The notes under the pieces are model-generated. The model did not search any database and was not told where the DNA came from. It saw nothing but the letters and a program-made list of their open reading frames with translations. A stretch of 64,000 nt of DNA from Galaxea fascicularis (taxonomy: Eukaryota; Cnidaria; Anthozoa; Scleractinia; Euphylliidae), in the NCBI GenBank assembly GCA_948470475.1, contig OX419346.1, positions 1,910,231 to 1,974,230 on the forward strand. The letters run 5' to 3'. The position numbers were made by a program, and so were the translations under genes. Within the stretch, counting starts at the first letter, position 1; every line of letters begins with the position of its first letter. Below, piece by piece: positions 3,225-59,357 of this stretch.

Positions 3225-3372
3225 GTCCGAGTACTGTTTACGTTATATATTGTCACTGTCAGGAGTAATTGCTTGTTTTACGATGGTGGAATTAAAACCT
3301 CCCTACTCAGAGCCTTAATTGTGATTCAGTTTCAGGGCAGAGCTCGATATCACGGAATTCTTCAAAGCAAAA

Positions 3373-4328
3373 ATGAATGTCAAGCTGTCGTTGTTACTCT
3401 CGGTTGTTCTTTTTTCTGTATGTACAGTACTTGAAAAGCCAAGCCAGAGAGGAGGGGCTCTTCTACATCGCTTGCGGCTGCTTTCCGATAAGGTAAAAAT
3501 TATTAATGATCAGCTATTAGTTTTAGTCCGTCAGCAGAATCAATTACACGTTTTTTTTATACGAACCAGTAAATTTCGGCTGAGGCACAGTTTTTGGTAA
3601 TTTTTTGAAGACTGCAGCCTCAAATCGTTCTTAAATTGTTATTTTTTATACTGTATACGACACGCTTAACTCACTTTGTATGATCATGCATGCAGACGTC
3701 TTGTCAGCTCATTTTTAGCTGGTACATGTACTCCATGCGAAATGTTCAGTAATTATTTTGTTGCCGAATCGAGCCTCATTTCTGAACGAAAAGCGGTACA
3801 TTGTATTACATGTACTTCAAGTTTTAACTGAAGGCAACATATATAAGGTACGATATTACTGACCGGTTTTTCCAGCTTTTCACACAAAAGAAGTGCGATT
3901 TTGGTTAAAGCGTATATTCAATAAATTACCGGCTGTAAGTTATCTAATCAAAACTCCAGCCTCGGCTTGTTAGTAGCTTGTTCTTAACTTTTGGGAAAAT
4001 CTCAGCCTGAGTGTTCTCATAAAAATGCAATTGATTCTTATTATAAAAAATACGCATGTTCTCAATTTGAGAAAGATTTTTACTGCTAAATCATTTATCT
4101 TGGACACAATCAAGGGAGGAAACTTTAAAACATCGGACCAGCTTCTTTATAACAAGTCTCAAAGTTTCACTCATCACAACTTGCCCATGATCAATCCTGT
4201 CATCTTCTTTTCAAAATCAGGTATTTGACCAGAGAAGCAGGACGGGAAAAACAGAAGGAAAAGAAAGTTCTGTAGGAGGGCCTGGACGGTGTGCTTCCGG
4301 ACATTGGAATATTTGTTCTGGAAAATGA
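3373..4328 (+). CDS. Peptide gene 1: secreted two-cysteine (CxxGxWxIC) precursor
   Basis: Predicted two-exon gene for a 75-residue secreted precursor; family not recognised. Exon 1 (CDS 3373-3492, 40 codons) opens just after an acceptor (ttcag, ends 3335) and encodes a signal peptide with a hydrophobic core at residues 5-20. It ends LLSDK at a phase-0 donor (AAG|gtaaaa). Exon 2 (4221-4328) follows a good acceptor (cttcttttcaaaatcag) and reads in phase 0 to TGA. The mature region carries GGPGR, then C64-ASGHWNI-C72, then SGK and stop. Arg before the loop and the terminal Gly-Lys look like processing and amidation signals, predicting a small disulfide-ring amide. A second in-frame acceptor 12 bases downstream (gaccag|AGA) would drop four residues. 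The loop resembles that of the gene at 27499. Splicing is inferred by eye. Confidence 0.6.
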
Positions 4329-5647
4329 AATAACAAGCCAAGTTGCTGCCGTTGTTTTCTTTAAATGGATCTGCAATCTCTTATTCTTTCGCGCTATCTA
4401 AGCATTCCATTTCAAGTTAGAAATCAGAAGCAAAAGAAGAGGAAGAAGAAAAATATGATATAGAGAGTAGAATCTTATTAACGGCTAACATGATCACGAT
4501 TTCCTTGCATTTCTGTTTTCTGTTCTGTCTGCAATTTTGATGTTTATAAATATAGGTGAGCTGTTTTGCGTTAACCATGAACGTCAGAATTACTTTACAT
4601 TGTTTCCAGTAGCCTCTTTTACAGGAAAAAATGTAAACGATAACATTACATTAACGAGTTGTTTGCCGCAAACGTGATGCTGTCTCTCCTATCACAAAGT
4701 TTCCACAGAGCATACGAACGGTGTGATGGCACGCAACATTCGAACGAAACAAATTTACCGGCAAAAGCTGTTAAACCTCAACACTCGGAATAACTCCTTG
4801 TAGCTCAAAGTAATTGTCGCTCATAACCGTTCAAGTGACAACTCACGGGATAAGTGCTGTAAAAGTCGAAGAGTTAAGAATAAAAGTTAAGTAAACAAAA
4901 CATGAATTAAATTAATTTTTTTCAGACAATTTCAATTCAGTTCTCTGTGACAAAATATAAGGAGCACTTAATTCTGCAAAACTGACATGGCTTACCTGGT
5001 TGGCGGGGGAACTTAAATAACGGTGTACAGACACCATAATGAATTTCGTCCAGATGTTGTTTCTGACCTTTCCATAGCCTTTAACCATATTTCAACCAGT
5101 CTTTGTAGTCTTCCGTTACCGCAAGAGAAACCTCAGTATAAACCTATTAGAAACTAACTGAAATGGTTCGACTTGAAGGCTCCATGGACAACATATGATG
5201 CCGTGGCAACTTATCTATTGTATGCCGTTTGTTGCCCCTCTGAACCATACAAACTGGCCTAATATATTTCTTTATTCTCCTAACTAATCCTTTCCAAATG
5301 GAAAGAAAGGATAAGGGGAACTGAGTTTGCCATGAAATATACGAAGCTAGATATCTAAAAAAAATAAAGGAGTGGAAGATCCGTTTAAAAACATAATGTT
5401 AAGTTTAGTGCTCTACAGAGACTATAACTTAAATAAAGTAATGTGAAAAAATGCTTTTAAGAAGTGAGTTGTTTGAAAGATGCTCATATTTGTTTGTAAT
5501 GAGTATTAACATGAAGTTAAGTTGGGTTGGAATGCCAGGATGCGGTCTCGATGTCTGAATTCACAACAGTACCAGCAATAACATAAGAACATTTTTTGCA
5601 CCTCACAATCAACTGACAATAATCGCGCGAAACAAAAATTATATACC

Positions 5648-5734
5648 ACTTATTAACCTCGTCCGTTCGGTCATCACAGGGAAATCTCAGACCCGGCGAG
5701 GCATGTAATGACCGAACGGACGAGGTTAATAAGT
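5648..5734. repeat. Inverted-repeat hairpin element
   Basis: The left arm 'acttattaacctcgtccg' and right arm 'cggacgaggttaataagt' are perfect reverse complements. Pairing continues through 'ttcggtcat'/'atgaccgaa' around a short GC-richer loop. This is a typical small non-autonomous foldback element. Confidence 0.75.
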
Positions 5735-6285
5735 TATTTATTATATGGCCCTTTTGGCGATAATAAAACTCGTTCTCACTGTGGCTCTCTTCATCACTCA
5801 TACTAAAGAAGTATCTGTATGCTAGTTTTTCTTTCAGTTATTACTTTGTCCATATTTTTTGTTGTTTTCGCCCACGCGCTCGTAGCTTTTACTCACAACT
5901 CAAAAGAGCCGTCGAGCCGAGAAACATTTTCATAATGCCTGGTCATTACAAGAAAATCTTGCCCGCTCTCCCGCTCAGCAGCCAATCCGAGCGCGCGTAC
6001 TAAACTATTGTAGCCATATAATAAACAGACATAACACTAAATCAAAAAGAAAAAAAAAGTTCGTATAGATAGTGAATTAAGGATCATAACCGACAGTCCC
6101 TTTAAAAAGAACTACAGACTTATAATTACTTCAGGCTGCTTGTTTCGCTAATAACAAGATACACACATATTTGATTGAGGTTGACATTCAGGTCAAGATC
6201 TCTTTTGACACACAGAAACAAATTTACAATCATCTAGGCATCTCTATTGCGTCGCACTCTACACACAAGTATCCTACAATTCACA

Positions 6286-6444
6286 ATTTTGCTGATAATA
6301 ATTTCCAAGTGGATTGTGGGTAGATCCAATTTGTGGGGCAAACCGCCTCTTAAGGAGGTAACTTGAAATTGCTCTTTTAACCGTTTACCCCCCAAAAGGA
6401 CTGGATCTACTCACAATTCACTTGGAACTGATTATTAGTAAAAT
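6286..6444. repeat. MITE-like inverted repeat
   Basis: Terminal arms of about 40 bases pair imperfectly: the left has 'ccaagtggattgtgggtaga' and 'tcca', the right 'tggatctactcacaattcac' then 'ttgg'. The middle is unpaired. It lies downstream of the VWA gene stop codon. Confidence 0.65.
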
Positions 6445-6848
6445 GGCATATTACCTAATCATCTCTTTTATCCCAAGTAAATCTAAGAGGTAAAAAACCA
6501 GATACTTTGAGACGAAATTCAGGAACTGCATGAAAAGCAAATCAAGAATAACTTCTTCAATAGTTACGGGAGTTTCTACCGTTCGTCCTCCTCTAAATCA
6601 ATACAAGTGCACGGAACAGCTTAGCACAGCCAACATGATAACCCACTTATTGTCACGAATTCAATCTCTTTCCCTTGCTTTAAATTTTGCACTCTCTTTT
6701 CAAGTCTAACTTTCGCTGTTATATGATACAGTATGAACTAGAAAAATTGAAACAAAAACAAATATAAAAACGACAAGCGCGCAGTCACCTTCAGAGTTAC
6801 CCTTGGTTTTCAGTTTTTCTCCAACTAGAGACTACATGGGTACTCTTT

Positions 6849-9800
6849 CTACGAGGTAACAAACAAGTGCATTGTTTGTGAAACAATAACCCTCGAGATT
6901 CTACCTTTAACGATCAGGAAAACAGTATCTGTCTTTTCCGCGTCCAGCAAGCGAGTAGCCATGACACGAAAAGGGATGGTCACACAACGGTCCTTTCTCA
7001 CTGACCTAAGTCTCAGGCGAGGGGAAGCCACGATGTAACGCATTCTATCCTTAATGACACGCACGTTGAAAACGTCATTGGGGCCATAGTTGCACAACTG
7101 GAAATGAATGAACGTGACTCTGTTTAGAGGGAGGGTGTAGTCATTGCTCGCGTACTTGCCCCTCAGCACGGCCGTGGTGGGTTTAACGGTTTGGCGGGAA
7201 ATTCTTTCAAATGCGTTACCACCACGTGTGGTTCCTCTCAGCTTTAGTTTGAAAGTACGTGCAGGCGCCCGAGGAGTCATGCTGGCGGTGAAATGGTCGT
7301 TGTCACGTGACTGGAGAGTGACATCACGAATGTGGTGTCCTTCAGTGGTTACAAGCTGCAGTCGCAGGGAACTGTGATCAACTTTCTCCGATCCAGCCAA
7401 AGTAATAACTAGGGTGTTCGGTTTACCTTTGAGAAGAAAAACGATAAAGATAATTTAAAGTCGTCTTTCATAGTAAATATCCACCGCTAGCCACCTCCAC
7501 TTCGGTGAATAGTTGTTTTATTATATACTTAAACAGTGAGATAATATACACCGCAAAAAACTGATTTTAATTCATATATTCCAGTAAAGATTGCAATAAA
7601 ATCCCGCGCGCAAAAACAGCTGTCTCGTTCTCTCGCTGACAGATAAAATTTCTGAAGACATTTGTTTAGTTCTGGTGGCGACATTTCTTCAAATGGAGTT
7701 GCAAACTCTCTCTGTATTGGAAACCATTCTGTAAAAAATTTCATTCAACTTTGGTTTTCAAGTGAACAAGTGAGGTGATTTTCTCTTTAAAACAACTCAT
7801 TTATTCGATTTCGCCGAATAAGCGCACACCCGGAAATCCGGAAAAGTAATTAAGCTCAAACACCCACCTCCCTCTCCGCATAGATTCAAACCGCGGAAAA
7901 TGTATCTGAATCAGAAAGCAGCGTCTTAAAATAAAAGGGTCAGCGAGCTTAGGCAACGAACACGGCAACGGCACAAGGACGCCAACAGTAGGTTCTACAC
8001 GTGCGTCCATACAAAGGCGAGAACCAACATTTTAAAAGTACGTTTTGCTCGAGCTTTCCAACGAAAGATAACGACCGCTCGTTGACCTACCAAGCACCGG
8101 ATTTGCTACCGGGACATCAACCATTTGCCCTCTTCGTCCTGGTACTGTGGTCAGAAAGTAATGGCTGAAATCCACGTTGGTAGCACTACTCGACTTGACG
8201 AAGAATTCGTGACCACCATTGCTACCCCTTACGGCTAGGGTCCAGGTTCCTCGTTTGGGGTTATCGATCTCGTATACTGAGATCTGGGATAGGCTAAGTT
8301 TTCCAGACGTTATTATGACGTTATCTGGGTCTGTCAAGGTGATCCCGTGCCCTGTAGTGAAAATAAAGGATCAAAAATGTTCTTTTGTTGAGATGGTTTG
8401 TGGCATTCTTTAGATAAATGGAGACAATCTCGAATTAGACATGGTTTGATGCTACTCTGGTTTGAAAATTGATGAATGTAACTTAAAAAGTTACAATTCA
8501 TCAATACATCAATCAATTTTAAACCAGAGTAGCATCAAACCATGCCTGATTGTCCACCTGGTTGCAGTGTGAACTTGAACATAATCTCGAATTAATTGTG
8601 ATTATAACAAATATATATATAAGCGGGCAGGATCTAGACCCCCTCTCCTGGCAAGAGAAATTCCGTGCAAATTATATATATCTGGCTAACAAGACGCAGC
8701 TTTGTGGCACTATGTTGAGGGGGGAAGAACAGGAGTAAATCTCCCTTCTCCCTACTTTCTGAGCCAATTTCTCCCTCCTCCCTACTCATCCGGGTCCATC
8801 CAGTTCAATTCTCCCTACTCCCAACTTATCTTTTTCTCCCTCCTCCCAACTTTTTTTGGGCCATTCTGTTCCTCCCCCCTCTATGTTGGAAAGTGCCTCA
8901 CAACAAACACATACTGAGTCGTTGTTCTGGGAATATGGATAATACACTCAATCCTTTAAATTTCAAGATCTCGTTTGCAATTCTCCCTTCATTCTGCCAT
9001 ACATTTCCTTGTAAATCACTAAAGAGAATTTGGTGTTATAGTAAGATGACACCCTCAAAGTGATACATTTGTCTAGTCGCATCACCTGTGTACAATGTAT
9101 TTGAAATAGAGAGTAGAAGTTACGTATTAATCACTCCTGGGATGATGTAAACAAGGAGCTGTTTCTTCCAGGGGTTGATTCGGGTTTGCTTATAACAAAG
9201 AAAAAAACTTATAAACCTTTTATGTTATGATGAAAAGGGAAGTGGACGAAAAGGCGAAATCGCAAAGACCCATTCGTGCACATCTAAAGTCAATGCCGAA
9301 CAAGCGCTGTACAGCAAGAACACAAACCTCTTGTATTTTGTCGAGTGGTGGTTACAGTCACAATCATTTCTTCCATGGAGTCATCCACTGGAATGCTGTA
9401 TCGGCTGTCTGCAGCTTGACCAACTCTCCTTTTCTTCCTGCTTGACATGTTTGATCCAAAACTCACCACATTGTTTCCTTCCAGGGCTCCACCAGTTAGA
9501 CCGGCGAGCTGCTCTAACTCCCATTGATCTTTGAGGTAAATAGCCTGGCCAAGAGTGAATTCTGCAAGGTCACGAAAAGCTGGATGAAGATTTCTCGGGT
9601 CATTACCACTGTAACCTTGACTGCGGCAGAAACCTAGACACAGAAAAAAACAAGCAAGCTAAGTCTTTGTCTTCCTCCTTTCACATCGCATCGTGTTTAT
9701 ATTATCGGACTTGATAATGCTGTCATGAGGACAGCAAAACGTCGTTGTTCCGTGCTTTTAATGTTAATCTTCTAAAAACATGAGAAAAGGCGTAAACAAC

Positions 9801-11167
9801 GAATCAAACACAAAAGCAAACATGCTAATAGATTGCTTATTAAATAACTAATAAACAAATGAATGAACGAATGGGTGAACGAATGAATAAATGAAGAAAT
9901 AAATGAAAGAATGAATGCGTGAATAAATAAATGAGTGAATGAATCAGGAGCCCATCACCAGGAGCGTACAACTGCCCGTCACGTCGTTTTCAAGGACCGA
10001 TTTATTTTTAGATTGAATTTTCCGCAAATATGGGACTACCTCAGGAACCCCATTCTCTCGTGCGAAACTTTTCCTCGACCTTTCTTTTGTTCTAAAGTTT
10101 CTTAGCTTCGCAGAGAAACTTTAGAACAAAAGAAAGGTAAGGATGATGCGATATCATGTGTACCGGAACTGCATTTTTTCACGGGAAAGATACTCTAAAA
10201 ATAAATCGCTCTGTAAAAGTGCCGTGACATAGGCTTAGTATAGGGGTTGTACGCTCCTAGTGATGGACTCCTGATGAATGCATGGGACAGTGAATGAATG
10301 GATGTATAAATGAGTAGATGGATCTATCCATGAGCGATGGAATGAATAAAAAGTCATGTGACTATTTTTCTAAAGCTAACACATATCCGAGGAATTGGTG
10401 TAACATAAATATGGTATCACAGTATTCTGAGTGAGTGTTCGAGATGACGGCTACAATACGGGCTGACTGCATTATAGTCTACAGAAACATTTATTTAACA
10501 TTTTTCACAGACTACCTTGTATCATGCGGTACCTGTAGTGAAGAAATTAATAGTGACGTCATATTCATCCTTGCTTGCCAACAGCTTTACTTCTTCTATG
10601 TCATACTCCGTTGCATCCTTAGGGCCCGCATCAGTGAATACGTACATTGGGGAACCTACCTCAGGGCCCTCGTACAGGGCCTCTAACATGCCCCTAAACG
10701 TGTACTCCGGACAGTCCCCTCCTCCGTGAGCCCTCAGGTTTTTTATGGCTTCTACAAATTCCCCAGCCTCGGTCTCGTCTTTGACAATCACTTGCGGACT
10801 GTCTATGAAAAATATTTAATCGCAGGACCCATCACTAGGAGCGTGCAACTACCCTATATTCCTGTCACAGCGTTTTCACAGAACGATTTATTTTTAGATT
10901 GAATTTTCCGCAAATATGGGACTCCCTCAGGAGCCCCATTCTCTTGTGCGAAACTTTTCCCCGACCATTTTTTTGTTCTTAAGTTTCTCTGCGAAGCTAA
11001 GAAACTTTAGAACAAAAGAAAGGTGATGATGATGCGATATCTCGTGTACCGGAACTGCCTTTTTTCACGGGAAAGATAGTCCAAACATAAATCGCTCTGT
11101 AAAAATGCCATGACGTAGGCTTAGTATGGGAGTTGTACACTCCTAGGGATGGGCTCCTGTTAATTAA

Positions 11168-11220
<53 letters not shown>

Positions 11221-14053
11221 CCGTTGGGCCGAGTTGGCTATAACCAATCTTATATCCAACAAGCGCGAATGGAATAATTGTTTTATTAAATTTTCAACCT
11301 TCGGTTTTGCTAAATTTTATTTAAGTGTAAGAAACGAGAAGAAAGTGATGAGACTTTCGGGCGCCAAAGCGACCTTTGACGCATTCATTTCCATATAAGG
11401 TCAAACGCAGGTATAATGGCTGGTAACCAAGATCTAGTGAACCAATCAAAAAGCTAGAATTGCATTATCCGAGGTTGAGAATTTAGTAATAGGTATTACC
11501 CCCTAGCTAAGCAAGAATGGGAGTTGCCAAGAGCTGAAGTGCACGAGAGCGGCACGAGAGGTTTCCTGAACGATCAGTAGTTATATCTGCAGTAATTCTT
11601 CCCAACATACGGAGGGTTGAACGACTGAATTATGATCCGCAACTCCCGCACTTTTTCGCGTTTCTGCCTCTCCCGGTAATTTATTTTTCCCTTGCCTTCC
11701 ATCCCCCACCCCCCATTCTTTCTCTCGGCCCCTGTTCTCCAGAGTTCCAGTCTCCTATCTCTCCTACTAAAATACTGAAAATGTCCCAAGACGTTTGTTT
11801 TTTAGTTTTTTCGTTGTTATCGTTACTGGTCTTTTCTAAGAAGGAGGAATCTTGGCGCGACGGTTTAAACTTGAGTATTAGGCATTTGAAAGTGTAAGGG
11901 AGGAGAGGAATTGAACGCGCGCGAAGAGACAAGAGGGAAAGAGGATTATTTTCTCCACGCTTCGCGTTTCTTCATCACGTGCTCTTTTCCCCTCTTTTCT
12001 TTACTTTCCACTGCTTGACACTTACCTGCCGGATAAGGGTCATTGAAAGGTGACAGAATGTAAGTGACAATAGGAGCACGACGAGGGTAATTAATGATGT
12101 CAATTGCAATGTTCTTTGCCGCCTCTATTTCATCACTCATGCTTCCGGTATCATCCATGACAAACATCAGTGACACATCTCCTTGCACCGCCATGAAACT
12201 ATCGAAAGTTTCACTTCCCACGCTCTGGCGAAGGCCCTGGAGAAATACTTTTCCCTCGTTTAGAGAGCTTCGCTTTTCACGCCTAGGCGCGGATGGTTTC
12301 GTGCTCAACAAATACATGATCTGTCCCATCATCTAAAAGATAATCACATGATGCAACTCATGAGTTTTTACATATGATCTAATTAAATGATAATGATAAT
12401 GATGACGATAATGATAGTGATAATGATAAATGATCGTTATAGTGATAATGATAATGATAATGAAAAATTAATAAATACTCAATTGACCACTCCCCTGGAG
12501 AGGCTTTTCAGGGACAGCGAAACAAAAAAACAAACAAACGAAAACAACAGAGTTAATGATATCCCAACTGGCGGAAGGTAGACCACTTTACAAGGATGAC
12601 CGAGAGGCTGGACTGGGCACTTACACAGAACAACGTGCAACAGTTAGTGGCCAGAGCGGGATATGAACCCGGATCGCCGCCTTAAAATCGAGCGCCCTAA
12701 ACCACTCGGTCATCCGTCCTCCAACTGCGTGGCATGGCAAGCGCGCAAGAAAGCCTTAAAATCAAGAGAAAAACAGGAAGTCGATCGATCAGGAGTGGTC
12801 ACAAAATCCTTTTGTAGGGACCGCGAGACGAAACACGATATCGTGCTTGTAACCTTTCACCAGCACGTTTGGATATACATGTATCCACGGCGAATTCGGA
12901 AGGCCGGGAAAGGACTTTAACATACCGTAAATTTTAATTTAGCCCACGCAGGTTCTTATATAAATGGTACTTAAAGCAAATTTAGGGTAGTTCTTATATT
13001 TTCATATGAATTTCTTTTAAATATATTATAAATATCATCTCATACAGTGTGGGGATGTCCTTAACAAGATATCAGCTCAAACAAACTCATAGTCACAAAT
13101 ATAATCAGGTGATGATCTTAATTCAGCAGTTTCTACCTATATACTTTTACAGCAACTCCACTGGTAAGAACCTAACTTAAAATGTTACCCTTACTAGGTT
13201 ATTAGGTGGAGGGAGCTTAAAATGAAAATTTTAGCCTAAAAGGTTATTATTAAAACCCAGGTTCTTATACGCGGGTTTTTCAGAAGGGGCTTGTTTACAG
13301 GGAATTTGTCGAGAATATATTCGTATACGAGACATGCGTATACTGGAGATTCAAAGTTATACTTGTAACTGGCTAAGATTGGCAGGTTTTGGTGGTGAAT
13401 CATTTGTTGTACACACTTGCCCAGTTGCACCTAAGTCTTCAATCGACAGATTCTTTACTTTTTCTAGAACGAATAACTCCGGTAATAAAACACAACAGCC
13501 TTACCTGTCGAGCGAACTTATAATTCTTGCTTCTCACGGCTCTCTCAACAAGAGCTTTTTGTTTCGTCAACGTCTGCGCACTATAGACAATACCTGAAGC
13601 GTTGGCATTCGCTACTGCTCGTTCAATTTCATTAAGCACTTCCAGAAACTTGTTGGAGGGAGAGGAACGCTGCCGATAAACCCTACGCTCCTTCTTGTAC
13701 GTCACAACAGTTTCTGTGATCGGTACTTGTGTGGTTCTTGGTCTTGGATGTGCAGTACTAGTTGGTCTACGTATTCTGAAAGGACCGCCGAAGCCTCCGG
13801 AGACACTCAATCTCCTGTGTACAACAAGCATCTTATCAGGCTTTTTCTCGGAGCTCGTGTAAATAGTTTTCATGACCGTCTTCGTCGTCTTTTTGGGCGT
13901 GAGAATTTCGACGGTTCGTTCCGAGCCACTCGAAAAATCCATGAATGAATCACGGGTGAACTGAAGAGAGGAGAAAAAATTGCCCCATGATTGATCTACG
14001 CATAGGAAGAGGACCATTATCCCAGTCAAAAGGAGCTGAACTCGTCTAGCCAT
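6849..14053 (-). CDS. Secreted VWA-domain protein (VWA7/hemicentin-like), six exons
   Basis: Complete 756-residue protein. Coding exons in order are 14053-13505, 12332-12026, 10802-10533, 9633-9328, 8351-8091 and 7426-6849 (stop). All junctions are GT-AG and keep frame; intron 1 is phase 0 and introns 2-5 are phase 1. Residues 1-24 form a signal peptide ending near DQSWG. The basic Ser/Thr-rich region after it precedes a VWA domain (about 234-400) split over exons 2-4. The metal-site motif is DDTGSMSDE (D243, T245, S247), the variant form seen in VWA7-like proteins, followed by GGGDCPEYTF (312-321) and YVFTDAGPKD (D343). Exons 4-6 encode beta-rich repeats of the family's C-terminal region (for example TWTLAVRGSNGGHEF and FKLKLRGTT). 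No transmembrane segment or anchor is seen after the signal. Likely an extracellular adhesion or matrix protein; the ligand is unknown. Confidence 0.85.
7427..8090 (-). other. Intron 5 of the VWA gene
   Basis: The 664-base intron runs from GTAGGT (minus-strand donor after CTTG) to TTCTCAAAG. It is phase 1. I see no repeat with clear termini and no nested gene. Confidence 0.7.
8440..8544. repeat. Near-perfect foldback element in VWA intron 4
   Basis: 'catggtttgatgctactctg' at the left is matched by its exact reverse complement ending at 8544. Arms extend to a total of about 50 bases each around a short A/T loop. It lies within intron 4 (8352-9327) of the VWA gene. Confidence 0.8.
8720..8885. 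repeat. Pyrimidine-rich degenerate tandem repeat
   Basis: Repeated variants of 'ttctccctcctcccaactt' make a strand-asymmetric C/T tract of about 165 bases inside intron 4 of the VWA gene. It is transcribed as a purine-rich segment in the pre-mRNA, since the gene is on the minus strand. No ORF here is credible. Confidence 0.6.
9840..9944. repeat. TGAA/TAAA-type microsatellite, left of the MITE
   Basis: Degenerate 'aatgaatgaacgaatg' repeats end exactly where MITE copy 1 begins. Similar 'gaatgaatggatg' sequence resumes at 10274, so the MITE appears to have inserted into a pre-existing microsatellite. Confidence 0.7.
9945..10273. mobile_element. MITE copy 1 in VWA intron 3
   Basis: A 329-base element with inverted ends: the left begins 'caggagcccatcaccaggag' and the right ends as the complement of 'caggagtccatcactaggag'. 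An 'atgaat' sequence at both borders may be the target duplication. A central hairpin ('cctttcttttgttctaaagt' and its complement) occupies about 10079-10137. A second copy lies at 10823-11159 in the same orientation. There is no transposase reading frame. Confidence 0.85.
10823..11159. mobile_element. MITE copy 2 in VWA intron 2
   Basis: About 337 bases, clearly homologous to copy 1 along its length, with the same inverted ends and central hairpin. The loop of the hairpin is in the opposite orientation to that in copy 1. Its left border is about 20 bases from the acceptor of VWA exon 3 (exon begins at 10802 on the minus strand), so it directly abuts the 3' splice-site region of intron 2. Confidence 0.85.
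11165..11290. repeat. Inverted-repeat element in VWA intron 2
   Basis: The arm 'aacaattattccatgagcgc' with 'gcgttggatat' pairs with 'atatccaacaagcgcgaatg' and 'gaataattgtt' about 60 bases on. The middle has a second stem ('tagccaac'/'gttggcta'). It follows immediately after MITE copy 2. Confidence 0.75.
12387..12470. repeat. TGATAA microsatellite
   Basis: Degenerate 'gataat' repeats in intron 1 of the VWA gene, close to the acceptor of exon 2. The frame that is open across it (12387-12581) is a repeat artefact. Confidence 0.85.
12575..12722 (-). mobile_element. tRNA-derived SINE
   Basis: Read on the minus strand, the 5' part resembles a tRNA. An A-box-like 'tgaccgagtggtttagggcg' is followed about 35 bases later by a B-box-like 'gggttcatatcccg'. 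A tRNA-unrelated tail then runs to about 12575. The head resembles a Leu/Ser-type tRNA in its A box, but the anticodon stem and acceptor are too degraded to call a functional tRNA. It lies in VWA intron 1 in the same direction as the gene. Confidence 0.7.
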
Positions 14054-17000
14054 GATTTAGGAATCCAATAGACGCTCAGTCTTCTTCAGTTTGAAGCGCA
14101 GAGAGTCAATTTCACCATTTGTCGTTATGAGGTCACCGGAAGATGTGTAAAACATCATTCGTCGCTGGATGTGTAACGGAAGTATTGATCAAACTTGTCT
14201 AAACACGTGGGTGTCAGAATATTCTCGTGTGTCCTTAAAATCTTCCATCGATGTAAAACCATGCGTAGGCTCTCCCCAATGACACTTGCTTGAAATAAAT
14301 GACTTGATAGAGAAGGAGGGCTCTCGGCAACAAAGAATGAGGAGAATTTAGCATATGCGCGAGGAAGAAAGCAGCACGAAAAGATTGATTCGCATGAAGT
14401 AAAAAATCATGCAGGCGAATTTTTTGCACGTGTATGAACTGTACTTTAATCAATGCAAAGTGCTTCATGTTGTTTGGTTGTGAAGGAAAAGGTCAGACCG
14501 TAGCGGCGGTGGGTGGGGAGGCTGCTTCGCGCTCGTTTTGGATAGGCTACTGTTGTTAAAAGCTGTAGGTTTGAATTCAGACTTAGCCAAGAGCGCCAGC
14601 CGTAGAAAATACCGATGCAACGAAACTATGTTTTTAAACGAAAACAAAAGAAAGCAGAAATAAAGAAAGCAAACAAGCATGAAACAAATAGGGTTTTTAA
14701 AGTTTTCAAGTGCTTACCTCCTACTCACTGAGTCGGAGAAGTTACCCTGCGGAGCGGTCGCCGAAGAGAGGAGGAAAAACGAGATTTGCTTTTTCCTTCA
14801 AGGGTACCTCGCATAATTACCCTTACGGTAATTTCACTAACCTTTCCGGGCTGGCTTCGCGGGGCAACGGAGGATGCGAGCGCGAAAAACGCGCCTTTTT
14901 GTTTAGTAAAACTAGTTCCAGGTCTTCTTTATAAAGTAAAGCCGAAGTTGCGTGACGGATGTTTGGGTCATTAAAACGCGGGGCCGGGGTCTGATGTAGG
15001 GCAGGAGCCCATGGGATTTTGTGTAGGGCTTGGGATAGGGATAGAGTAGGGTCAGGATTAGGGTTAGCCGACCCGGGCCCCGGCCCTTGCGTTTTACTGA
15101 CACCCCGGAATGTTTGCAACATTGGCATCAACCATGCAGTTTTTTCACATAACTGGAAACTGTCAACTTTCTCGCCTTACCCTCCACCACCCTGGCTACT
15201 AACCCCTCTCCCCATCTAGCAATAAACGAAAATTACGTGACATCAATTACTTGTTAACTGGTCATTTAATTTTTCGTGTATGTATCGATCATGAAGATTC
15301 TCATTCACTGGGGTACGGTTGGAATGGCTTTAACTCCGGTCTTGGTCACTGGTCTGTTAAAAAAAACAGAGAAAAGCAGATGAAAACCAGCCTCTTGTTA
15401 CGCCACATTTGATCAAGTACACGTACACAAGAACCTGGTGTACTAGTCCTGGTAACCACTGTTCAGACTCGCGTTTTCTTAAATTTAAAACCTTTTTCTA
15501 TGAGAATAGTCTAAATAATATTTTCAATGTGTTACATTCTGTAATTATTTTAGACGAATTCGAAAACTCACAACATACCTTGTCGGTCAGAAGATGAGCT
15601 TTACTTTCCGTGTCATTTAATACTGTACAAAGTTTCGACGTCTCCCCCCTTTTCTTCGGGCACAAAAGAATTGACCAGCCAAGCATCGCTCAGGAACCGC
15701 GCGTTCGTTTTTCTTTCGAGAACTTTCTCCTCGTAACGAAGATCTCACAGTTATCTTCGAATCTTTCTCCGGCCCTGCAAAGGCTGGCGGATCAGCGAGT
15801 CCTTCTTGAAATAATCCTCTGCTTAATTTTTCCTTCTGAAAATTCTGACAATGAAAATACAAGGGAAATCAGTTTTGAGTTTCTCCTTGGACGTCGAGTT
15901 AACTTGAAGATCTGGCCATTTTCAATTGGAGAAATTTGTTTACCCGCAAACAAACAATTACCTTTGTATTCCACGATGCTCTCTGGTTTCTTAGGCGAGG
16001 ATGAATCGCAGAAGCAGTTAGAAAAACAGCTGAGAATAAAAGCACCATCATCTCTCTTCGCTTAAAATTCATCGTTTTCCTCTCACAAGTTTTGAATCTT
16101 TTACCTTACTGTCATGAAATAAAAATGTAATAAAGAAAGTAATCAGTACGTTGAGAAAGACTCAAAATTCGGTTACATGTAACGAAGCTTTACTCAGTCT
16201 AGTTTCTTACCCCATTCCACTAAAAGCAACTCGGGAGTGGTTAGACCGCGAGGATGAGCCGTGGTTAGGCAATAAAGCCTAAGCAGAAATCTATCGGCAG
16301 TGGCGGTCGATCTAGATCAGTAGAACAGCCGATGACGCCGCCGTAAAATTGAAATTCAGCGTGCATGTCGTTTCATTTATTAGAAATATTTAAATTTTGC
16401 AAAAATCTTTGTGTGGTCACCTAAAATGAAGAGCATACTTACCAGGGTTAGACTGCGAGTAGGGTTAACTAAGTTAGGTACCTTGACCAAGGTTTTGACC
16501 CTCTAACTGCTTTGCTGCAACCGTCACTTCGTTATTATATTGCAGATGTCCCTCAATCTGATCACGCTGACTAAAACTGCGGCGAAACTCGTCGTTTTGT
16601 TAAAGTCTTTTTGTTGAAGCGGATAAAGACTAGACGCTTTGGAATCAATGACCTATTTTATGCTTTTATTAATATTATAATTATATGATAAATACAGGTG
16701 AACGGATATCCTTGGGTTCCGAATCGTTCCTGTTTTCAACTTATTACCTTGAATTTTAGCCTATACTGAAACCATAACAGAAAGCTCACGAGTTTATCTT
16801 GGCTTAAACGATTGAAAATGGGTCATCAACAAATTGTTTAGCTATCTTTCTTACTTAATAGAGAGATTTTATTGCCTCACTAAGAGTTATTTTGGCATAG
16901 ATAACGGTCATTTGCGGTTTGTAAGCCGCATAGGCATTCGTCACCGTCGGGATTAAATCATCTTTGACGAAGGTCGAAATAGAATTTAAAAAAAGTAAAA

Positions 17001-24373: not shown

Positions 24374-24746
24374 GTTGATGTGTTCTTTGGAGGTACGCTG
24401 TAAGGATTTCTGACAGTATCATGCAAAACAATTGCATCACGAATACGATGCATGGAGGTTTGTGAAATTAAATCAAAAGAGGTACAAATTGATCTAATAA
24501 TTTAAATTACACGTACAATGGCTAACAATGTATTTTTCTACAAGAAAACATCATCTAGCCAGTTGATTTGTTCTTTGGAGGTAATGATTTCTGACAGTAT
24601 CATGGAAAACAATTGCATCACGAATACGATGCGTGGAGGTTTGTGAAATTAAATCAAAAGGGATACAAATTGATCTAATAATTTAAGTTACACTTACAAT
24701 GCCTAACAATGTATTTTTTTGACAAGAAAACATCATCTAGCCAGTT
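24374..24746. repeat. Tandem duplication, period about 188 bases
   Basis: The unit begins 'gttgatgtgttctttggagg' at 24374 and again 'gttgatttgttctttggagg' at 24562. The copies share long blocks such as 'acaattgcatcacgaatacg' and 'gacaagaaaacatcatctag' at high identity, so the duplication is fairly recent. It is noncoding. Confidence 0.9.
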
Positions 24747-27498: not shown

Positions 27499-29329
27499 AT
27501 GAAAATGGCACCTTCCGTCATGCTATCTTTAATGCTATCGCTCATTGTGGTGGGTTGCCTTATATTGTACACAGACGGTGCACCTCTTTCTCAAAGGGAT
27601 GGTCTCGCGATGCTGGAAATTTCTGGAGGTTATAACCTGAAGATTAAGGTTAGAAAATGGGAATTTAATCTCAAACTTGTATGATGAATATGACTTATGA
27701 ATATGACTGGTTTATTTACTTCAAATCTATCATTAACATCATTGATTAAAACAATTATTTTTAGAACTTTTTTCAAAACTTCTGGGTTTAATTTTGATGT
27801 TCTCTTCCTCGTGATGTCTTTAAAAATGGCCGACCATTAAGTCCTAATCTTGTGACTTCCTTTGAGGTAACCGCGACGCAATTGTTAGATGGGTCTAAAT
27901 TGGAATCTGTTACATCGACGATTTGAAACCAACGATTTTCAGTGCTTAAGGCCCTCGCAAACGAGGCAACATTGTTGCGGAAACATCGTCGTGGACACAT
28001 TGTTTCCCGAAATGTTTCCTCGTTTGCGCGCACACGGAACATTTGTTGTGGAAGTAATGTTTCCTCGTTTGCGAGGACCTTTAGGTTGGGTTGACGATAC
28101 TTCAGACAATCCTGTGATAAACTTCATTATGATGAACGGTCTGAACAGAGCGTAAACTCCCTTTTCATCTTAAAACAAAATTAACCACAAAGCATAACCG
28201 GTGACGGCCTGATAATTAAACATACAATCATTACAATCTCAGCTTAATTTCCGGCAGAGAGTTCAGATCTCTCTAGACGAGTGGCTTGACTATGGTAACT
28301 GAACTCGGTGATTGTCATTGGCGGCATTCCATTGTGCGCGAAACTTCCCTTTCCTTTGAACATTATATAGAGCTTATAGTTTGCTTATCATCAGAAAGAT
28401 ATTGAATGAAAGTAATTTACACTCGTGACTGATTTGGCAAAGCTAGAACATTTTCATTTTCCTCTGTCAACATATGGGATGTTATGGAGAACGAGATTGT
28501 GTTCATAACGAAAGATATTTTGTAACAAGAGATATTTTAACCGAATTAGGATACCAAAAATGTGAACAATATCATGAAGCAGAATGGCTCACTTGAGGTG
28601 AAAGAGGCGACAAGCAAAATCGGCGAAAGAACGTCAAGCACCTTCCCTGGTGATGACACTCAAGTGAGATCTCTCAAAAACACCATTACATTAGACGAGA
28701 GAAGACATACGACCCAAAGACAGAGAGTTAGGAGGGGTGTTCCTCGACGGTGTCTTCCGGGATGGTGGGCATTGTGTAATAGACTGCAAGAACTCAGAAA
28801 ACTAAAGGGCAGGACAGAAGGAGAAACCAGCAGACGATCTGGAGGTAAACATTTTCCTTTGGTTATTCCTTTAGAAGGGATTAATTGAACTGAATGGGTG
28901 AGATACCAAGCAAACACACTTCATTATGAATTCTTCACTTATATTCCTGACTCCATGTAAAGGAGTTATGTCACAAATTATCACTATAAAAAGTTTACCA
29001 GTTTACCAACACTACGAACAAGCCTCTAAAGATGGCGAGCATTAAGATCCTGGCCAACTTTTCCAAGTTCTTCTGATGCGTCCGAAGATATAGCTATGCA
29101 CAAAATATGATTTGCTTCCCCGGCATTGAGAGAGAGAGAAAAACGTGGTTCTTTCAGTTTGTGTTCTGGGAGCGTTTTGATTGTAAATAAAGGCACGTGA
29201 GGTTGCTTCGTTTTAGTTTGATCCCCATGAAAGTCTCTTTTTTTTCAAAAAATCACCCCTTACCTCTTTGGTTGCTGTTTTCATTTTCTTTCAGGATCAA
29301 CTGAGACGCCAACGATTTATGATGGCTGA
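27499..29329 (+). CDS. Peptide gene 2: secreted precursor with CxxGxWxLC loop
   Basis: Predicted three-exon gene, about 159 residues, family not recognised. Exon 1 (27481-27648; ATG 27499) follows a strong acceptor (ttttttcaag). It encodes a signal peptide (hydrophobic residues 8-24, likely cut near TDGA) and ends at a phase-0 donor, AAG|gttaga, which is weak. Exon 2 (28550-28844) starts in phase 0 and carries an acidic/basic spacer, then QRQRVRR, GVPRR, C118-LPGWWAL-C126 and NRLQELRKLKGR. RR before the loop and KGR after it look like cleavage and amidation sites. Exon 2 ends at a donor (GGAG|gtaaac, phase 1). A pyrimidine-tract acceptor at 29294 joins a short last exon ending IYDG-stop. If that intron is retained, translation ends at 28888 instead. 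The loop matches the one at 4290-4316. Exon 2 is convincing; the exon 1 link is less certain. Confidence 0.6.
27949..28080. mobile_element. MITE in intron 1 of peptide gene 2
   Basis: The ends 'aggccctcgcaaacgagg' and 'cctcgtttgcgaggacct' are inverted repeats flanked by a possible TTA duplication. The middle repeats 'gaaacatcg'/'atgtttcctcgtttgcg' variants. Open frames across it (27788-28155 on both strands) are by-products of the repeat. Confidence 0.8.
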
Positions 29330-29528: not shown

Positions 29529-29529
29529 A

Positions 29530-45556: not shown

Positions 45557-46943
45557 ATGAAGGCGTCAAACTTCTACGCAATCGCTGTTCTGTTAGTTGG
45601 TTTGGTGATGTTAGCGTCAGCAAGACCAAGATTTGAAGTGAAGGAACTTCAAATGGGAAGACGCATATTAGAGGTGAGCTTTCACATAAACCATCGAATG
45701 TTATTTAAGAATTCACCGATATTAATTTGTGCCAAACGAAGTGCAGGTTTGAAAAATTTTGTGAATTTGCCACTTGGAGAAAATGAAATTGAAGTAATTA
45801 AGTAAGTAAGTAAGTAAGAACTTTATTTAAGTGTCAATGTATTTAGCCAATGTGGGCTAACTGGGGACATTATTGCCTCTACCATGGGCTCATTCTCTAC
45901 CTACAAATTCTTATTAAAAGAATAAATTCTCATAAAAATAGGATTAAAATATTGTTCTACAATAAAAGAAAATAGAAGAACATATGTTCTTTTTCGAAAT
46001 TCTAAAATTCTATATTAATGTAAATTTAAAATTCTAAACTGAATTCCTTATTTCTGAATAGATGGGTGAGGCCTCTTATTTCGGGTGCAAAACTTACTGG
46101 CCGCACAGGTTACAGCAATTGCTGTTGTTACTTATGATGCAGGACAAAAGTCTTAGGACAATTGCCTCTCTACCCCCCCCCCCCCGAAAAACCAGATGCG
46201 TCCATCGACCGCTGGAATGTTGCAATATTGTCTGGGGGGAGCTGGGTTCTAAAGGACGCAGTAAAAGAACAACATTCGTTTGAGGGTCCCCTATACTTTT
46301 TTCGTGAAACGTGATTGGGACTATTTTTTCTCGGGAAACGTGATTTAGGTTTATTTGTTCATTCGTGCTTCGTGATTGCCGATATTTGCTTTATCGTGAA
46401 CGTGAACGAATTTTGGGAATTATCCATGACGCGTGAACAGTCTCAATATTTTTACGTGAATGCATTTTCCAAAGTGTTGTAGGGGACCCTCTCGTTTCTG
46501 TTGTAAGGGTAGAAGTGTGCGTAGTGAAATTTTCTGGTTTTCGCCCAAGTTTGTCAAGTGTTTACTTCTACCAGTTCAGGAAAGTCAATGATATGTTAAT
46601 ATTGGAAACTTTGCTACTTTTTCAGGATGCATTAAAGCTTCATTCAAGAGTTGCCACCGATAGGAAAGAGAGCGAAGAAGACAAGAACGAAACAGATTTC
46701 ATGAAAAAGCTGTTTGACTTAAATGAGCACGAGAGCAACCCCAACTTCTTGGACACCAAGTCAAAACTGCCCACACCAGAAAACGGTCCTCGGCAGTCTG
46801 ATGCGGCACCTAATGAAAACAGTTATCGACCCAAGACACGAGTACGCAGGCGTTGTTCACCTGTACTCTTCGGGTGCACTACACCTTCAACCATAATACG
46901 TAAACACAGGAAGCATAAACAAGCTTACAACAGGCGTTTCTAG
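45557..46943 (+). CDS. Peptide gene 3: secreted precursor with RRR-CSPVLFGC loop
   Basis: Predicted 144-residue secreted precursor, family not recognised. The signal exon begins after a consensus acceptor (ccgtgttgcag, ends 45513); ATG at 45557. It gives MKASNFYAIAVLLVGLVMLA with cleavage likely at SA|RP, and ends GRRILE at a phase-0 donor (GAG|gtgagc, 45673). The second coding exon (46626-46943) follows ctttttcag and reads in phase 0. It has an acidic spacer (ESEEDKNETD), a Pro/Asn-rich stretch, then KTRVRRR and C116-SPVLFG-C123, TTPSTII and a basic tail (RKHRKHK). Polybasic sites on both sides of the six-residue loop predict release of a cyclic peptide. The size and plan recall cyclic neuropeptides in general, but no family match is claimed. 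Both splice sites are strong, making this the best supported of the set. Confidence 0.75.
45789..45935 (-). mobile_element. Probable LINE/SINE 3' tail in peptide gene 3 intron
   Basis: A (TAAG)n tract at 45795-45820 abuts 'aactttatttaagtgtc'. Read on the minus strand this is a body followed by AATAAAG and a short simple-repeat tail, as in some CR1/L2-type non-LTR elements. No reverse transcriptase is in view, so class is tentative. Confidence 0.45.
46282..46491. mobile_element. MITE in peptide gene 3 intron
   Basis: 'gagggtcccct' at the left pairs with 'aggggaccctc' at the right. The interior has degenerate 'cgtgaaacgtgattgg' units. It lies just upstream of the second coding exon, about 130 bases from its acceptor. 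Confidence 0.7.
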
Positions 46944-49660: not shown

Positions 49661-49769
49661 GTCATTCTAGTTTTTCAAACCGCAAATTAAATCAAACTTG
49701 CTTTTGAGACGTTCTTCCGTTCTGTTCCGTTTCTTTATCATGTTGTACAAGGTGGTTCTCGTCTGTTAA

Positions 49770-52700: not shown

Positions 52701-52898
52701 CAGTGGAGAAGAGTCTCGCCTTTGATAGATAGCCCCTCAGTAATGTTATGTGATCAATTTATGGTCAAAGCAACAGGAGGGACCTATGCCTTTGTCCGGT
52801 CCAAACAAACTTCCCAATTTATGCTCATGTTCAGGGCTGATTTGAACGAATTGAATCCAAAATTAACCCACATGTTGGAGTGCCACGGGCGTGGCAAG
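52701..52898 (+). CDS. Unassigned internal exon-like frame, phase 0-0
   Basis: A 66-codon frame is bounded by an acceptor (aatgattgcag) and a donor (GGCAAG|gtattt), both in phase 0. It reads like folded protein (CDQFMVKATGGTYAFVRSK, FMLMFRADLNELNPKL). Neighbouring exons are not identifiable, and downstream sequence (52980-53100) has short broken frames, so an isolated exon relic is as likely as a live gene. Confidence 0.25.
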
Positions 52899-55093: not shown

Positions 55094-55155
55094 TGGGAGG
55101 GTGAGGGAGGGGTGAGGGAGGGGGGAGGGAGGAAGAGGGGGGGGGAAGGGGGGCG
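55094..55155 (+). repeat. G-rich purine tract
   Basis: Some 60 bases almost free of pyrimidines, with many runs of three to nine G separated by one or a few bases. The composition could form G-quadruplexes or triplex DNA on the + strand. The 122-codon frame that starts here is a low-complexity artefact at its N-terminus. Confidence 0.7.
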
Positions 55156-57338
55156 TCGGACCGCCATCGGTAGACTGCTAGAGCACCTCTGGCGCGAGTT
55201 GGAAGGGTTGTTTCTCTTCAGAGGCATACAAAACGGCTCTTGTCGGAGCCACAACACAAGGTCTTGCTCTCCGTGCTTTAAGTTAAGTTTTTCGCAGCAT
55301 TTCTGTCCAAATTGCAATTTAAGTTTGGTAGCAGGAGCTCATTACCCTGGTGTTAGTGACTGTTCATCGGATGGATCACTTCATGAAAACATCATTTTCA
55401 ATCTATGCCGGCCAGCCAGTTTGGTTTTTAAATTAACCCTCGTACAGGCCTGGTTTAAGGGTGACACTATGTGTGAGTAAACTTACACTGCAATCTGAAA
55501 TCGGAACAAACAAGCTTGGTCTAGCTAAACGCTAGAAAAGGGCTGCAGGCATCGCGAAAGAGACCTCATGGATAACCTTTATGGCAGACAGCAAATTATT
55601 CAAAGTGATGGCTGAATCACTGCTCCAAAGAATGGGCTTGTAAACTGTGTAATCAAAGGACAAACATTTGTGGTCGGATTCCGGCCAAAAATTCCCTGGA
55701 TTTTCCAGCAAAAGTATTCTTTTGATTCATTGAGTACATGTTCGATTTTACCGATGATTCTTCTTTGGTCTCTAATGAGGAATTTTGAAGTCCTTACTAT
55801 ATCTTGTGCAACATCAAATACTCGCAGCTTTCATTTGCAGTAAACACAATGTTTGGCGGCTATTAATGAACAAACGATGTTTGACCAAATGCGTATTTTC
55901 GCTGAAATTTCGACGCAACCACTTGAACCTGCATCCGTCAACCTCTGAAAGAAGTGTGAATCCGCGTATATCGGTAAAATTACATTAAAACTCTCAGAGG
56001 CCATTGCTGAAGAGGCTGTTCATTTAGTTGTAAGTTTAAATTGATTGACACACTTTTGACAAGAGAACAGATCAAAGCTGTGTCAGGACCAGCCTAACAC
56101 CACGAAGTACATTTTTGCTTATTTAATAGCAGTCGCGTGCCACCTTATTAGACAACGATCTTATTTCAAATACTATTTGAATTTCAATATCCTGTTAAGC
56201 GAGACACGAAAAAATGTTGTTAAGCCTTGTGTAGGGGAATTAGAGTAGCATTCACTTTTTCACAGGTTTAAATAGCAGAAAGCCTACCCTGCCAGCTGTT
56301 GGTTTCTCCTCTCGGGAAGCGCAGGGGAAACCAACTGCTCCCAGGCCGCACAGAAAGCCAGGTAAACAGAAAAAAGTGCGCAAAAGAAATGCTCTATTCT
56401 CCCCCTATCAATCTCTAAACAACGATTTTGAAGCCGATCGATCCAGTTGTTTGAATCTTTGATTATAATTTATCTAATAACTGATCTACACTACTATGGC
56501 ACAACTACAAAACAACCACTGAAGTCAGAAATGCTAGCGGGAAAACAAATAGCACTGATGAGTTATTACTAGTCTGGAAACACAACATAAATACCTCAAA
56601 TGATTACGACTATGTGATATTCAAAGACGTCCGACATCACTGATCATCACTGGCGTGGCAGTCAAGAAGCAGAAGAATTCATGAGCTGAGAAGATCCTGG
56701 CAAATTTGTATCAACGCTGTCTGAGATTAGCAAATAGCGATAAACTGCGAAATAATGACCAAAGGAAATGAGAACGTAGTTGGGCAAAGATCAACGAGTA
56801 CTGACGTTTCCAATTCAGTTTACGTGATCGCTTGTTCCTTCTTGAATCATGTGCATTAGAAATCGGTTACTTATTAATAGACAACTATGGGGCCTTAAAG
56901 CCTGCTTGTCTTATGGGCGCTAAGGTGGATAGCAGAGGCTAAAGCTCAAAAACAGACTTAGCTTGGTAGCGAACGAAAAACGATTTGTATAGACCAATAG
57001 CTGACATACAGTACCGCATATTAAATTAAAATAAGTTGTCCGTGTGTTCAGTTTAAGGACAGTTCTGGGTCTATTAGGCCACATGTCAGTTGTCCGTTTA
57101 AGGTTTTCACCTCTTTATTTGAGAAAGGAGAAGTTGTAATTCTCGCTGTTATCGTTTGCTTGCTAAAGCAGAGCTTATTTGACAACAAGTGTTCTACTCT
57201 GGTAACTAGAGGTAAGGTCGAAAAATAGAGGGAAAGTATGACCATTAGGCGAGCGATTCAGTTTTATCTAAGCTAACGCCTGTTTCTTCGTCCTTTTGCA
57301 GAATTAACAAAAACTGATTTCAACTCAACTCAATTGCG

Positions 57339-58264
57339 ATGCATTACAAGTGCTTCCAGGTTTTTATTCTCTTTAACGTCAGCGTCTGGCTTTGTGCTTC
57401 ACTTCCGATTTCATACGAACAAAGGAAACAAACAGCAGACCTGCTTAACAAGGTACAGCGACAGACAAAGAATACTTAAATACCCCGACCGTAAACATGT
57501 CTTTGGACCGATTCTCCCTAAATCAGTCGGAGCTGAATAGTATCCACCGATTTGGGGGGTGCAATTCACCGATTTAACCATAGTCTTTCCTATTGTAGTA
57601 TTGTAATACTCTACGATTCTCCATTTTATGAAAAACGATTCTCCGATTGAACTATGCTATTCTACAATTTAGCACTTACCAGACTCAGCTCTTCTGTTTG
57701 GACTTACTAGTATTGGGGTATTCCTAAGCTGCTTTCATACATACTAGTTCCGTACTATGACTTATTTTTGCAAAATTAATGCACTCTTTTTGGCCTTGGT
57801 GTTCTGAAACTTAACTCGCACCCTGCCGGCACGCTTTAATTCGTTGGTTAGTCATTAATGGTTACTCTTCCCTAATCCGCTGCCTTCCTGATAAAGCGCA
57901 GAGCGGTACATCCGAGGTCTGGTGTTTAACAGACTATGTAATTAAGTAATTAGATTTGAAAAGTCGCGCTCGTACTTAACTTACAAGGTTCTTAATATGT
58001 GTATAATTACAGGAAGTGACTCTAACATTACACTCTAAACGTTGGGATAGAGTGTTGGGATAAAACTCTGTTCCACCTCTGATCAATATTGATATGAATG
58101 CCACGGAAGGTTTCGTCCAGGAACACCGCCCTCAATTTCATATTGCTTTTCAAAGTTGTTTGCAGGCGAAAGACGTTCCATGCAAGATGAATGGAGCAGA
58201 GATGAACGGTCGATGTTTCAGCCAACAGGGGAGAGAAACAATGGAGAGCCAGACCTTAGCATGA
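57339..58264 (+). CDS. Peptide gene 4: secreted two-cysteine precursor
   Basis: Predicted 70-residue secreted precursor, family not recognised. The signal exon follows a strong acceptor (ttcttcgtccttttgcag, ends 57301); ATG 57339; the core FQVFILFNVSVWLCASL is likely cut near ASL. It ends QTADLLNK at a phase-0 donor (AAG|gtacag, 57452). The next exon (58166-58264) after ttgtttgcag continues in phase 0 as AKDVPC44-KMNGAEMNGR-C55 and ends at TGA. The loop is longer (10 residues) than in genes 1-3 and lacks a dibasic site directly before it. Exon plan and lengths match the other precursors. The same genomic exon is also open in another frame for 43 codons up to a donor at 58297, so an alternative product cannot be excluded. 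An AATAAA at 58511 could serve as its 3' end. Confidence 0.5.
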
Positions 58265-58510
58265 GGGAGATGCTCCTTCGTGATATTCTTGAATGGGTAA
58301 GAAGAATTTTCACGAATTACATTTTTCCCGACTAAGTTTGTGGTCAGTAAAAAGAAATGAGTGGGAACACGAAAAGGCTCCAATTAACTAATTAAATAAT
58401 GCCGGTTCTATGACAAAATTGGGTATCTGCTAGCTCAGTAGTCTCCCTCGCAGCCGTTTTTAGTCTCGTCACGTAACGCTCCTTCCCTAGTTCAGTTGGC
58501 TACCACGTGA

Positions 58511-58516
58511 AATAAA
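58511..58516 (+). terminator. Possible polyadenylation signal of peptide gene 4
   Basis: AATAAA about 250 bases after the stop codon at 58264 and about 190 bases before the first recognised exon of peptide gene 5. Confidence 0.4.
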
Positions 58517-58701
58517 AGGCCAGCGCAAAATCCGGTCTCAATTATCAAAATTCTCCGTTTTAGGCTACGTGACCGGCAAGAGAAACAAACATTCTTGAGT
58601 TAATGATGCTAAATTTCAGTTGACTTCAATATTCCTTGCAATATTTCCATTAAACTGAACCGCCGTGCAGTGAACCAAACATTTCCTCACATTTGTCACA
58701 G

Positions 58702-59357
58702 TTTAAGGGTTTTGAAAACTGTACATTGCTGATCGTCGCACTAATTGCCATACAATTAACAAGAACGTTTTATAAACAGAATAGAAGAAAGCTTGAACAA
58801 CCCGAACAGAGTCAGAACACACTCGAAAAACGACAGCCTTGTCGAATTAGTCCTGGCCACCCTCCTCCAGCAAACTGTTATCAAGCATCACAAGATACAC
58901 CGGAGAAGCAAGAACAGAGGAAAAGATACGAATGGGTAAGCAACATTTCGTTAACTTAAACAACGACGACGGAAACAGCGACGAAAACGTGACACAAGAA
59001 AATAGAGTAAATCAGCAAAAACAATCGCTCACAGTGCATGTGCGTTTTACATCGTGGTACATTTCTTCATTTCTTTGTCACCCTCTTCCTCGGCGCTTAC
59101 CACAGGACATTTCGAGATTTTCATTTAAGGGAATCGTTTATTATTACAAAATATTAGCTAATATTATCTCTAGAAATTTGCGGCATGCATCCCTAAGAAC
59201 CAACCATACAATTGCTTTCTAGGCGTTCAAAGAACCTGGACAAGGACAGATGACTGCATTGGACATGGATGAAATTAAAGAGTACGACATGGAATTAGAG
59301 AAAGCGTTAAACGGGTTGGAAATAAAAGGACGCGGCTCCCTTTATAATCAGATGTAA
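58702..59357 (+). CDS. Peptide gene 5: KR-flanked two-cysteine precursor, start exon not found
   Basis: Two exons, at least 122 residues, family not recognised. The first seen exon (58702-58935) follows an acceptor (catttgtcacag) in an open frame without an in-frame ATG, so the start must lie upstream. It encodes a signal-like hydrophobic segment (CTLLIVALIAIQL), a Gln-rich spacer, EKR, then QPC-RISPGHPPPAN-C and a spacer ending QRKRYEW at a phase-0 donor (TGG|gtaagc). KR before Gln suggests release of a peptide with an N-terminal pyroglutamate and an 11-residue Pro-rich loop, closed by the downstream RKR. The last exon (59223-59357) after ttgctttctag continues in phase 0 with an acidic tail (DEIKEYDMELEKAL) and a KGRG site before the stop. 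It may share a start exon with peptide gene 4. Confidence 0.5.

Follow-up and report, generated by a model that had tools for sequence, protein, structure and literature searches.

A putative dispersed cluster of small secreted ring-peptide precursor genes in the stony coral Galaxea fascicularis

Somatostatin, allatostatin-C and melanin-concentrating hormone (MCH) each carry one disulfide ring near basic sites; the MCH ring begins RCxxG, and the allatostatin-C loop has six residues. In passages of PMC11087051, which mention disulfides solely under mass-spectrometry methods, the receptors of these hormones are reported to form a bilaterian-specific group. Within Cnidaria, passages of PMC6909153 describe cyclic FRamides (CXXXMCWFRamide) in Scyphozoa and Cubozoa, not found in Staurozoa or Octocorallia, and passages of PMC8638164 describe GPPCRWGCamide, a predicted cyclic neuropeptide of Clytia that lies inside an RWGamide precursor. 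Here we analyze a 64,000-nucleotide stretch of the Galaxea fascicularis genome (contig OX419346.1, positions 1,910,231 to 1,974,230 of the forward strand; hereafter the window). We hold with moderate confidence that it contains five small preprohormone-like genes, scattered over the two strands as a loose cluster, of which genes 1, 2 and 6 share one ancestor and gene 3 probably does too. Genes 1, 2 and 3 keep their numbers from a preliminary description of the window, gene 4/5 merges two of its genes, and gene 6 is newly added.

The preliminary description had recognized the set by two cysteines beside a basic residue. To put this on a chance baseline, six-frame pattern counts were compared with 20 Markov shuffles over 264 kb, that is, the window plus 100 kb on each side, both strands (12,620 of these bases are N); all local scans covered this region. 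For [KR]C-x(6,7)-C there are 76 matches against a shuffle mean of 68.8 (maximum 83), which is chance, and for the looser pattern RC-x-x-[GV]-x(3,4)-C there are 6 against a mean of 3.5 (maximum 8). Bare two-cysteine loops were thus dropped as evidence of a family. The longer pattern P-x-R-C-[LA]-x-G-x-[WF]-x(0,2)-C matches three times, in genes 1, 2 and 6, and not once in the 20 shuffles; a form admitting gene 3 gives four matches, where the shuffles average 0.2 (maximum 1). Neither found further members in the 100 kb on either side. A less data-dependent test scores the columns around each first cysteine after redrawing the surrounding residues from the same exon 20,000 times. Genes 1, 2 and 6 score 63 against −24±13, and with gene 3 added the score is 67 against −48±19; no shuffle reaches either value. 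Taken pair by pair, the loop score of genes 1 and 2 is reached by 5 of 20,000 shuffles, that of genes 2 and 6 by none and that of genes 1 and 6 by 192. The full loop exons also stand above shuffles (z 6.4 for genes 1 and 2, 5.4 for 2 and 6, 2.9 for 1 and 6), and masking the motif lowers these values to 2.3, 0.0 and −1.5, respectively. A conserved mature part within an otherwise diverged precursor is therefore found for genes 1, 2 and 6 and not for genes 3 and 4/5. Because of the column, pair and masked-exon scores, we regard genes 1, 2 and 6 as a family by their ring. Judged from these sequences, their similarity is largely confined to the motif, as peptide precursors would show.

Gene 6 lies on the minus strand, and the set is therefore not the same-strand set that had been proposed. 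It came from a scan for signal exons that required an ATG, a hydrophobic core and a phase-0 donor. Since cysteines were not a criterion, gene 6 is an independent find, and its loop exon carries VPxRCLxGx[WF], as gene 2 does. The exon ends in AVPERCLAGQFFCARRKGGRRRNFVQY and carries the loop ERCLAGQFFC. A donor-like ACAAG/GTATGT follows closely after the stop codon (15616-15578, minus strand), and perhaps there is an intron in the 3' untranslated part of the gene.

Nine distinct frames pass the signal-exon scan, and genes 1, 2, 3 and 6 hold the four highest hydrophobic peaks, 2.83-3.18 compared with 2.0-2.55 for the others. Signal peptides were judged from hydrophobicity only, and by this measure those of genes 1, 2, 3 and 6 are the strongest in the 264 kb; gene 4/5 falls below the donor threshold of the scan. 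The first intron is in phase 0 after codon 37-50 in all five genes, and a likely acceptor, read by eye and unscored, lies 18-43 nucleotides upstream of each ATG, that of gene 2, TTTTTTCAAG, being poor. The four signal exons placed earlier at 3373, 27499, 45557 and 57339 were thus recovered with an acceptor near the ATG and a phase-0 donor, three of the four donors being weak. No further convincing signal exon was seen in the 100 kb on either side. Behind the hydrophobic core, none of the ten gene pairs is significantly similar. The ring cysteine comes right after a basic pair or triplet in genes 2 and 3; in gene 4/5 a basic pair stands two residues before the ring, and in gene 6 the basic residues (ARRK) come one residue after it. 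When exons were scanned for a loop with a dibasic site, eight distinct places in the 264 kb came up: genes 2, 3 and 4/5, plus five more, with neither gene 1 nor gene 6 among them.

Gene 3 is matched over its full length by P0001, an entry of 144 amino acids on a 963-bp contig in a predicted-protein database, at 98% identity. Because gene 3 spans 1387 bp from ATG to stop in the genome, the shorter contig is without the intron and reproduces the exon join that had been predicted. We take this contig to be a transcript of the same or a close species; the source code "lgn" presumably stands for Logan assemblies. A second entry, P0002, is the signal exon of gene 3 unspliced, reading on into the intron. 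For gene 2, a 1971-bp contig of a relative carries P0003, an open frame left unspliced, which is 95% identical to the loop exon. A donor-like GGAG/GTAAAC follows 28844 in that exon, and its coding part could end sooner. All residue changes seen against relatives spare the rings, in small numbers: 3 of 144 in gene 3, 4 of the 107 compared in gene 2 (the first residue of P0003, a start codon, was left out) and 6 of 181 in gene 4/5. The precursor of gene 1, unlike those of the other genes, ends in CSGK-stop (4287-4328). Because of this SGK end, its ring could be C-terminally amidated.

The preliminary description had treated genes 4 and 5 as separate. Reading the sequence, we found before 58156 an acceptor-like TTTTCAAAG through which exons 1 and 2 are in phase, and four phase-0 exons chain into a precursor of 181 amino acids. 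This model was written before the alignment search returned P0004, a 181-residue protein on a 989-bp intron-free contig, which aligns to it without gaps; the genomic span is 2019 bp. The two-gene arrangement is ruled out by the four-exon model and this match, as is 58702 as the start of a gene 5 signal exon, since the contig joins exon 2 to 58780. It follows from the same match that the loop assigned earlier to gene 4 (AKDVPC...) is not the protein; it belongs to the wrong frame of exon 2. The earlier loop exons of genes 1, 2 and 3, with one Cys-x(6-7)-Cys each, are unaffected. Gene 4/5 does not fit the shared ring motif, and it may be a neighbor of similar layout with its own larger loop, unrelated by descent. 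The exons of all five genes are listed in Table 1.

Table 1. Exons of the five candidate precursor genes, in positions of the window.
Feature	Position	Strand	Details	Basis
Gene 1 signal-peptide exon	3373..3492	+	40 codons; phase-0 donor	sequence reading, signal-exon scan
Gene 1 loop exon	4221..4328	+	loop RCASGHWNIC at 4287-4316; C-terminus SGK	
Gene 6 loop exon	15617..15844	-	loop RCLAGQFFC at 15688-15662	
Gene 6 signal-peptide exon	15962..16072	-	37 codons	signal-exon scan
Gene 2 signal-peptide exon	27499..27648	+	50 codons	sequence reading, signal-exon scan
Gene 2 loop exon	28550..28888	+	loop RCLPGWWALC at 28748-28777	
Gene 3 signal-peptide exon	45557..45673	+	39 codons	sequence reading, scan; join matched by P0001
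Gene 3 loop exon	46626..46943	+	loop RCSPVLFGC at 46851-46877	
Gene 4/5 exon 1	57339..57452	+	signal peptide, 38 codons	model and P0004
Gene 4/5 exon 2	58156..58296	+		model and P0004
Gene 4/5 exon 3	58780..58935	+	KR-QPCRISPGHPPPANC loop; cysteine codons start at 58840 and 58876	
Gene 4/5 exon 4	59223..59357	+	stop codon included	model and P0004

Genome-wide searches covered the 416.6-Mb assembly of 170 contigs, in which the window sits on a 22-Mb contig. Outside the cluster, protein searches with the loop exons returned nothing for gene 6, which found itself only, a single match for gene 2 (a 50-codon frame at E 0.78) and seven for gene 3 (E 2-3.2); we judged all of these matches to be chance. 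These searches are insensitive, since they missed each other's paralogues. Pfam includes profiles for the somatostatin, allatostatin-C and MCH hormones. Neither these families nor any other was identified in a Pfam scan of the five precursors, which gave two unrelated weak rows and is a weak test for short peptides. NCBIfam gave three rows, none convincing, and the PDB one and two rows with E above 1.

Beyond the gene structures read and scanned here, the intron-free contigs for genes 3 and 4/5 and the motif of genes 1, 2 and 6, we infer secretion, a disulfide, cleavage and a signaling role. The precursors of genes 1, 2 and 6, and probably that of gene 3, would combine a signal peptide with a rapidly changing spacer and a single mature peptide, with the core P-x-R-C-[LA]-x-G-x-[WF]-x(1,2)-C and a disulfide closing a loop of 6-7 residues. 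After removal of the signal peptide the ring would close in the endoplasmic reticulum, and prohormone convertases would cut at the basic residues beside it. The extracellular ligand thus released would most likely act on a G-protein-coupled receptor (GPCR). A ring-peptide hormone would be expected to show this combination of a conserved ring, present once per precursor, with a diverged spacer, a signal peptide and basic sites. Tentatively, and at a little under even odds in our estimate, the genes encode undescribed one-copy, disulfide-ringed signaling peptides with the motif PxRC[LA]xGx[WF]x(1,2)C that spread by local duplication and could bind orphan cnidarian GPCRs.

A number of observations weigh against these readings. 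The tight motifs were taken from the data themselves. When the W-type loop pattern is run over the whole genome it matches four times, two of them genes 1 and 2, with four matches in the reversed control and 2.4 expected from base composition; the pattern alone is therefore not discriminating, and the other two matches, which lie away from the cluster in frames 14 and 32 codons long, were judged to be chance. Genes 1 and 2 retain a weak similarity with the motif masked (reached by 18 of 500 shuffles). Loop scores of gene 3 with genes 2, 6 and 1 are reached by 243, 1498 and 10,396 of 20,000 shuffles, and those of gene 4/5 by at least 15,692, that is, no similarity. Adding gene 4/5 weakens the column score to 6 against −76±27, which 64 of 20,000 shuffles reach. 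Unmasked loop-exon pairs with gene 3 or gene 4/5 have z of −0.9 to 0.6 (−0.2 to 0.6 for gene 3, without significance). The first donors score 2.2, 2.2 and 0.7 in genes 1, 2 and 4/5, which is weak, and 6.9 in gene 3. Gene 1 has a single R at the ring and no basic pair, and gene 6 no basic pair before its ring. A search of its own yielded no intron-free contig for gene 2. Genes 1 and 6 have none either, as seen by an alignment search only; because this search also missed the findable P0001, its silence is weak evidence of absence. The local family of secreted one-loop precursors on a conserved gene frame that had been proposed is supported, more strongly than before, by the motif of genes 1, 2 and 6 and the intron-free contigs of genes 3 and 4/5. 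Its earlier list of members does not stand. Within the earlier set, gene 3 is a likely, weakly supported member by its layout and a weak motif, and merged gene 4/5 has no sequence support.

If the peptides are not signals, they may be defensive, a loop and basic tail acting on microbial membranes as in the single-disulfide cationic antimicrobial peptides of the bactenecin and brevinin types. We consider this unlikely, though well ahead of what follows. Defense genes suit local duplication and divergence, the loops contain W, F and L, and the charge with tail reaches +4.9 in gene 3 and +1.7 in gene 2. The basic tails of genes 2, 3 and 6 fit as well; that of gene 6, ARRKGGRRR, lies outside its charge figure. 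However, charge is otherwise weak, at +0.8 in gene 1, −0.3 each in genes 3 and 6 without their tails and −1.2 in gene 4/5, and the conservation in genes 1, 2 and 6 concerns a specific ring motif rather than amphipathicity in general. For a secreted, disulfide-looped local family we thus rank signaling as more likely than defense, given this conserved ring and the lack of a strong positive charge in genes 1 and 4/5.

Recruitment of such a family into venom, or into gland secretions of another kind, seems improbable to us. The host is a cnidarian, and venoms commonly contain small secreted peptides with disulfides. A precursor with basic sites and a single disulfide is nevertheless unlike the many-cysteine anemone peptide in passages of PMC5450702, and Pfam matched no family. 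Slightly more improbable still is coincidence, by which unrelated small secreted proteins would share a chance likeness of their loops in selected frames. Two-cysteine loops near basic residues do occur at chance frequency, the motif had been noticed ahead of its test, and for genes 3 and 4/5 no similarity reaches significance. Coincidence sits poorly with the layout common to the genes, and with gene 6, which came from a scan blind to cysteines and then showed the VPxRCLxGx[WF] of gene 2, at a score no shuffle in 20,000 reached.

Three VWA7-like loci lie on the minus strand nearby (VWA_4 at 2.9e-12; VWA7 domains just below the cut-off), at 6852-14053 among the peptide genes, at 62749-66931 directly after them and crossing the window end, and at 91326-94235 beyond it. 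They are mutually paralogous, with 28-87% identity by exon. Exons 62749-63192 and 91326-91745 are 87% identical, compared with 55% for the copy at 64185-64610 and 32% for that at 6900-7253, which indicates a recent duplication of this exon pair. The peptide cluster may have grown by joint duplication with the VWA7-like loci. Separately, 24400-24746 holds 1.9 repeats of a 181-bp unit with a 93% match.

No matching family appeared in the literature listings and main-text passages that were term-searched. Ring-peptide terms are absent from the term-searched text on Nematostella (PMC6756747) and Hydra (PMC12440616), and passages of the review PMC9545775 contain no cnidarian ring peptide. The passage on the coral peptide of PMC12858582 shows no cysteine. 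For the neurosecretory cells of coral larvae, PMC12225738 reports short secreted proteins whose cysteines are conserved. According to passages of PMC11087051, most cnidarian peptide-type GPCRs have no known ligand, and a library of 64 peptides was used there. If the present peptides are real ligands, they form a concrete set of cyclic peptides to try on orphan receptors, and they would show that gene layout, together with a diverged ring motif, can lead to such families.

In the parts of PMC7523074 consulted, the hexacoral GRFamide, GLWamide, X1PRX2amide and RWamide precursors have a signal peptide and basic processing, as predicted for the present genes, and those of the RWamides are single-copy like them. 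These peptides are amidated, with no cysteine ring described; a term search of that text finds neither "cyclic" nor "cysteine", and "cystine" once, on vasopressin. The script described there accepts a precursor from three similar copies upward, with amidation-type sites, and would therefore pass over ring peptides encoded in one copy; TBLASTN and Regex searches with known peptides were also run. Among the ring peptides of other cnidarians, GPPCRWGCamide has three residues between its cysteines and is amidated right after the second, according to the passages of PMC8638164. The CXXXMCWFRamide consensus is found in none of the five loops. In the passages of PMC6909153, cyclic FRamides have four residues between the cysteines, a C-terminal WFR(X)amide and several similar copies per precursor, whereas the present genes have 6-7 residues, one copy and no FRamide. 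Common to both are a presumed ring of two cysteines and candidate basic processing sites in a precursor from a cnidarian.

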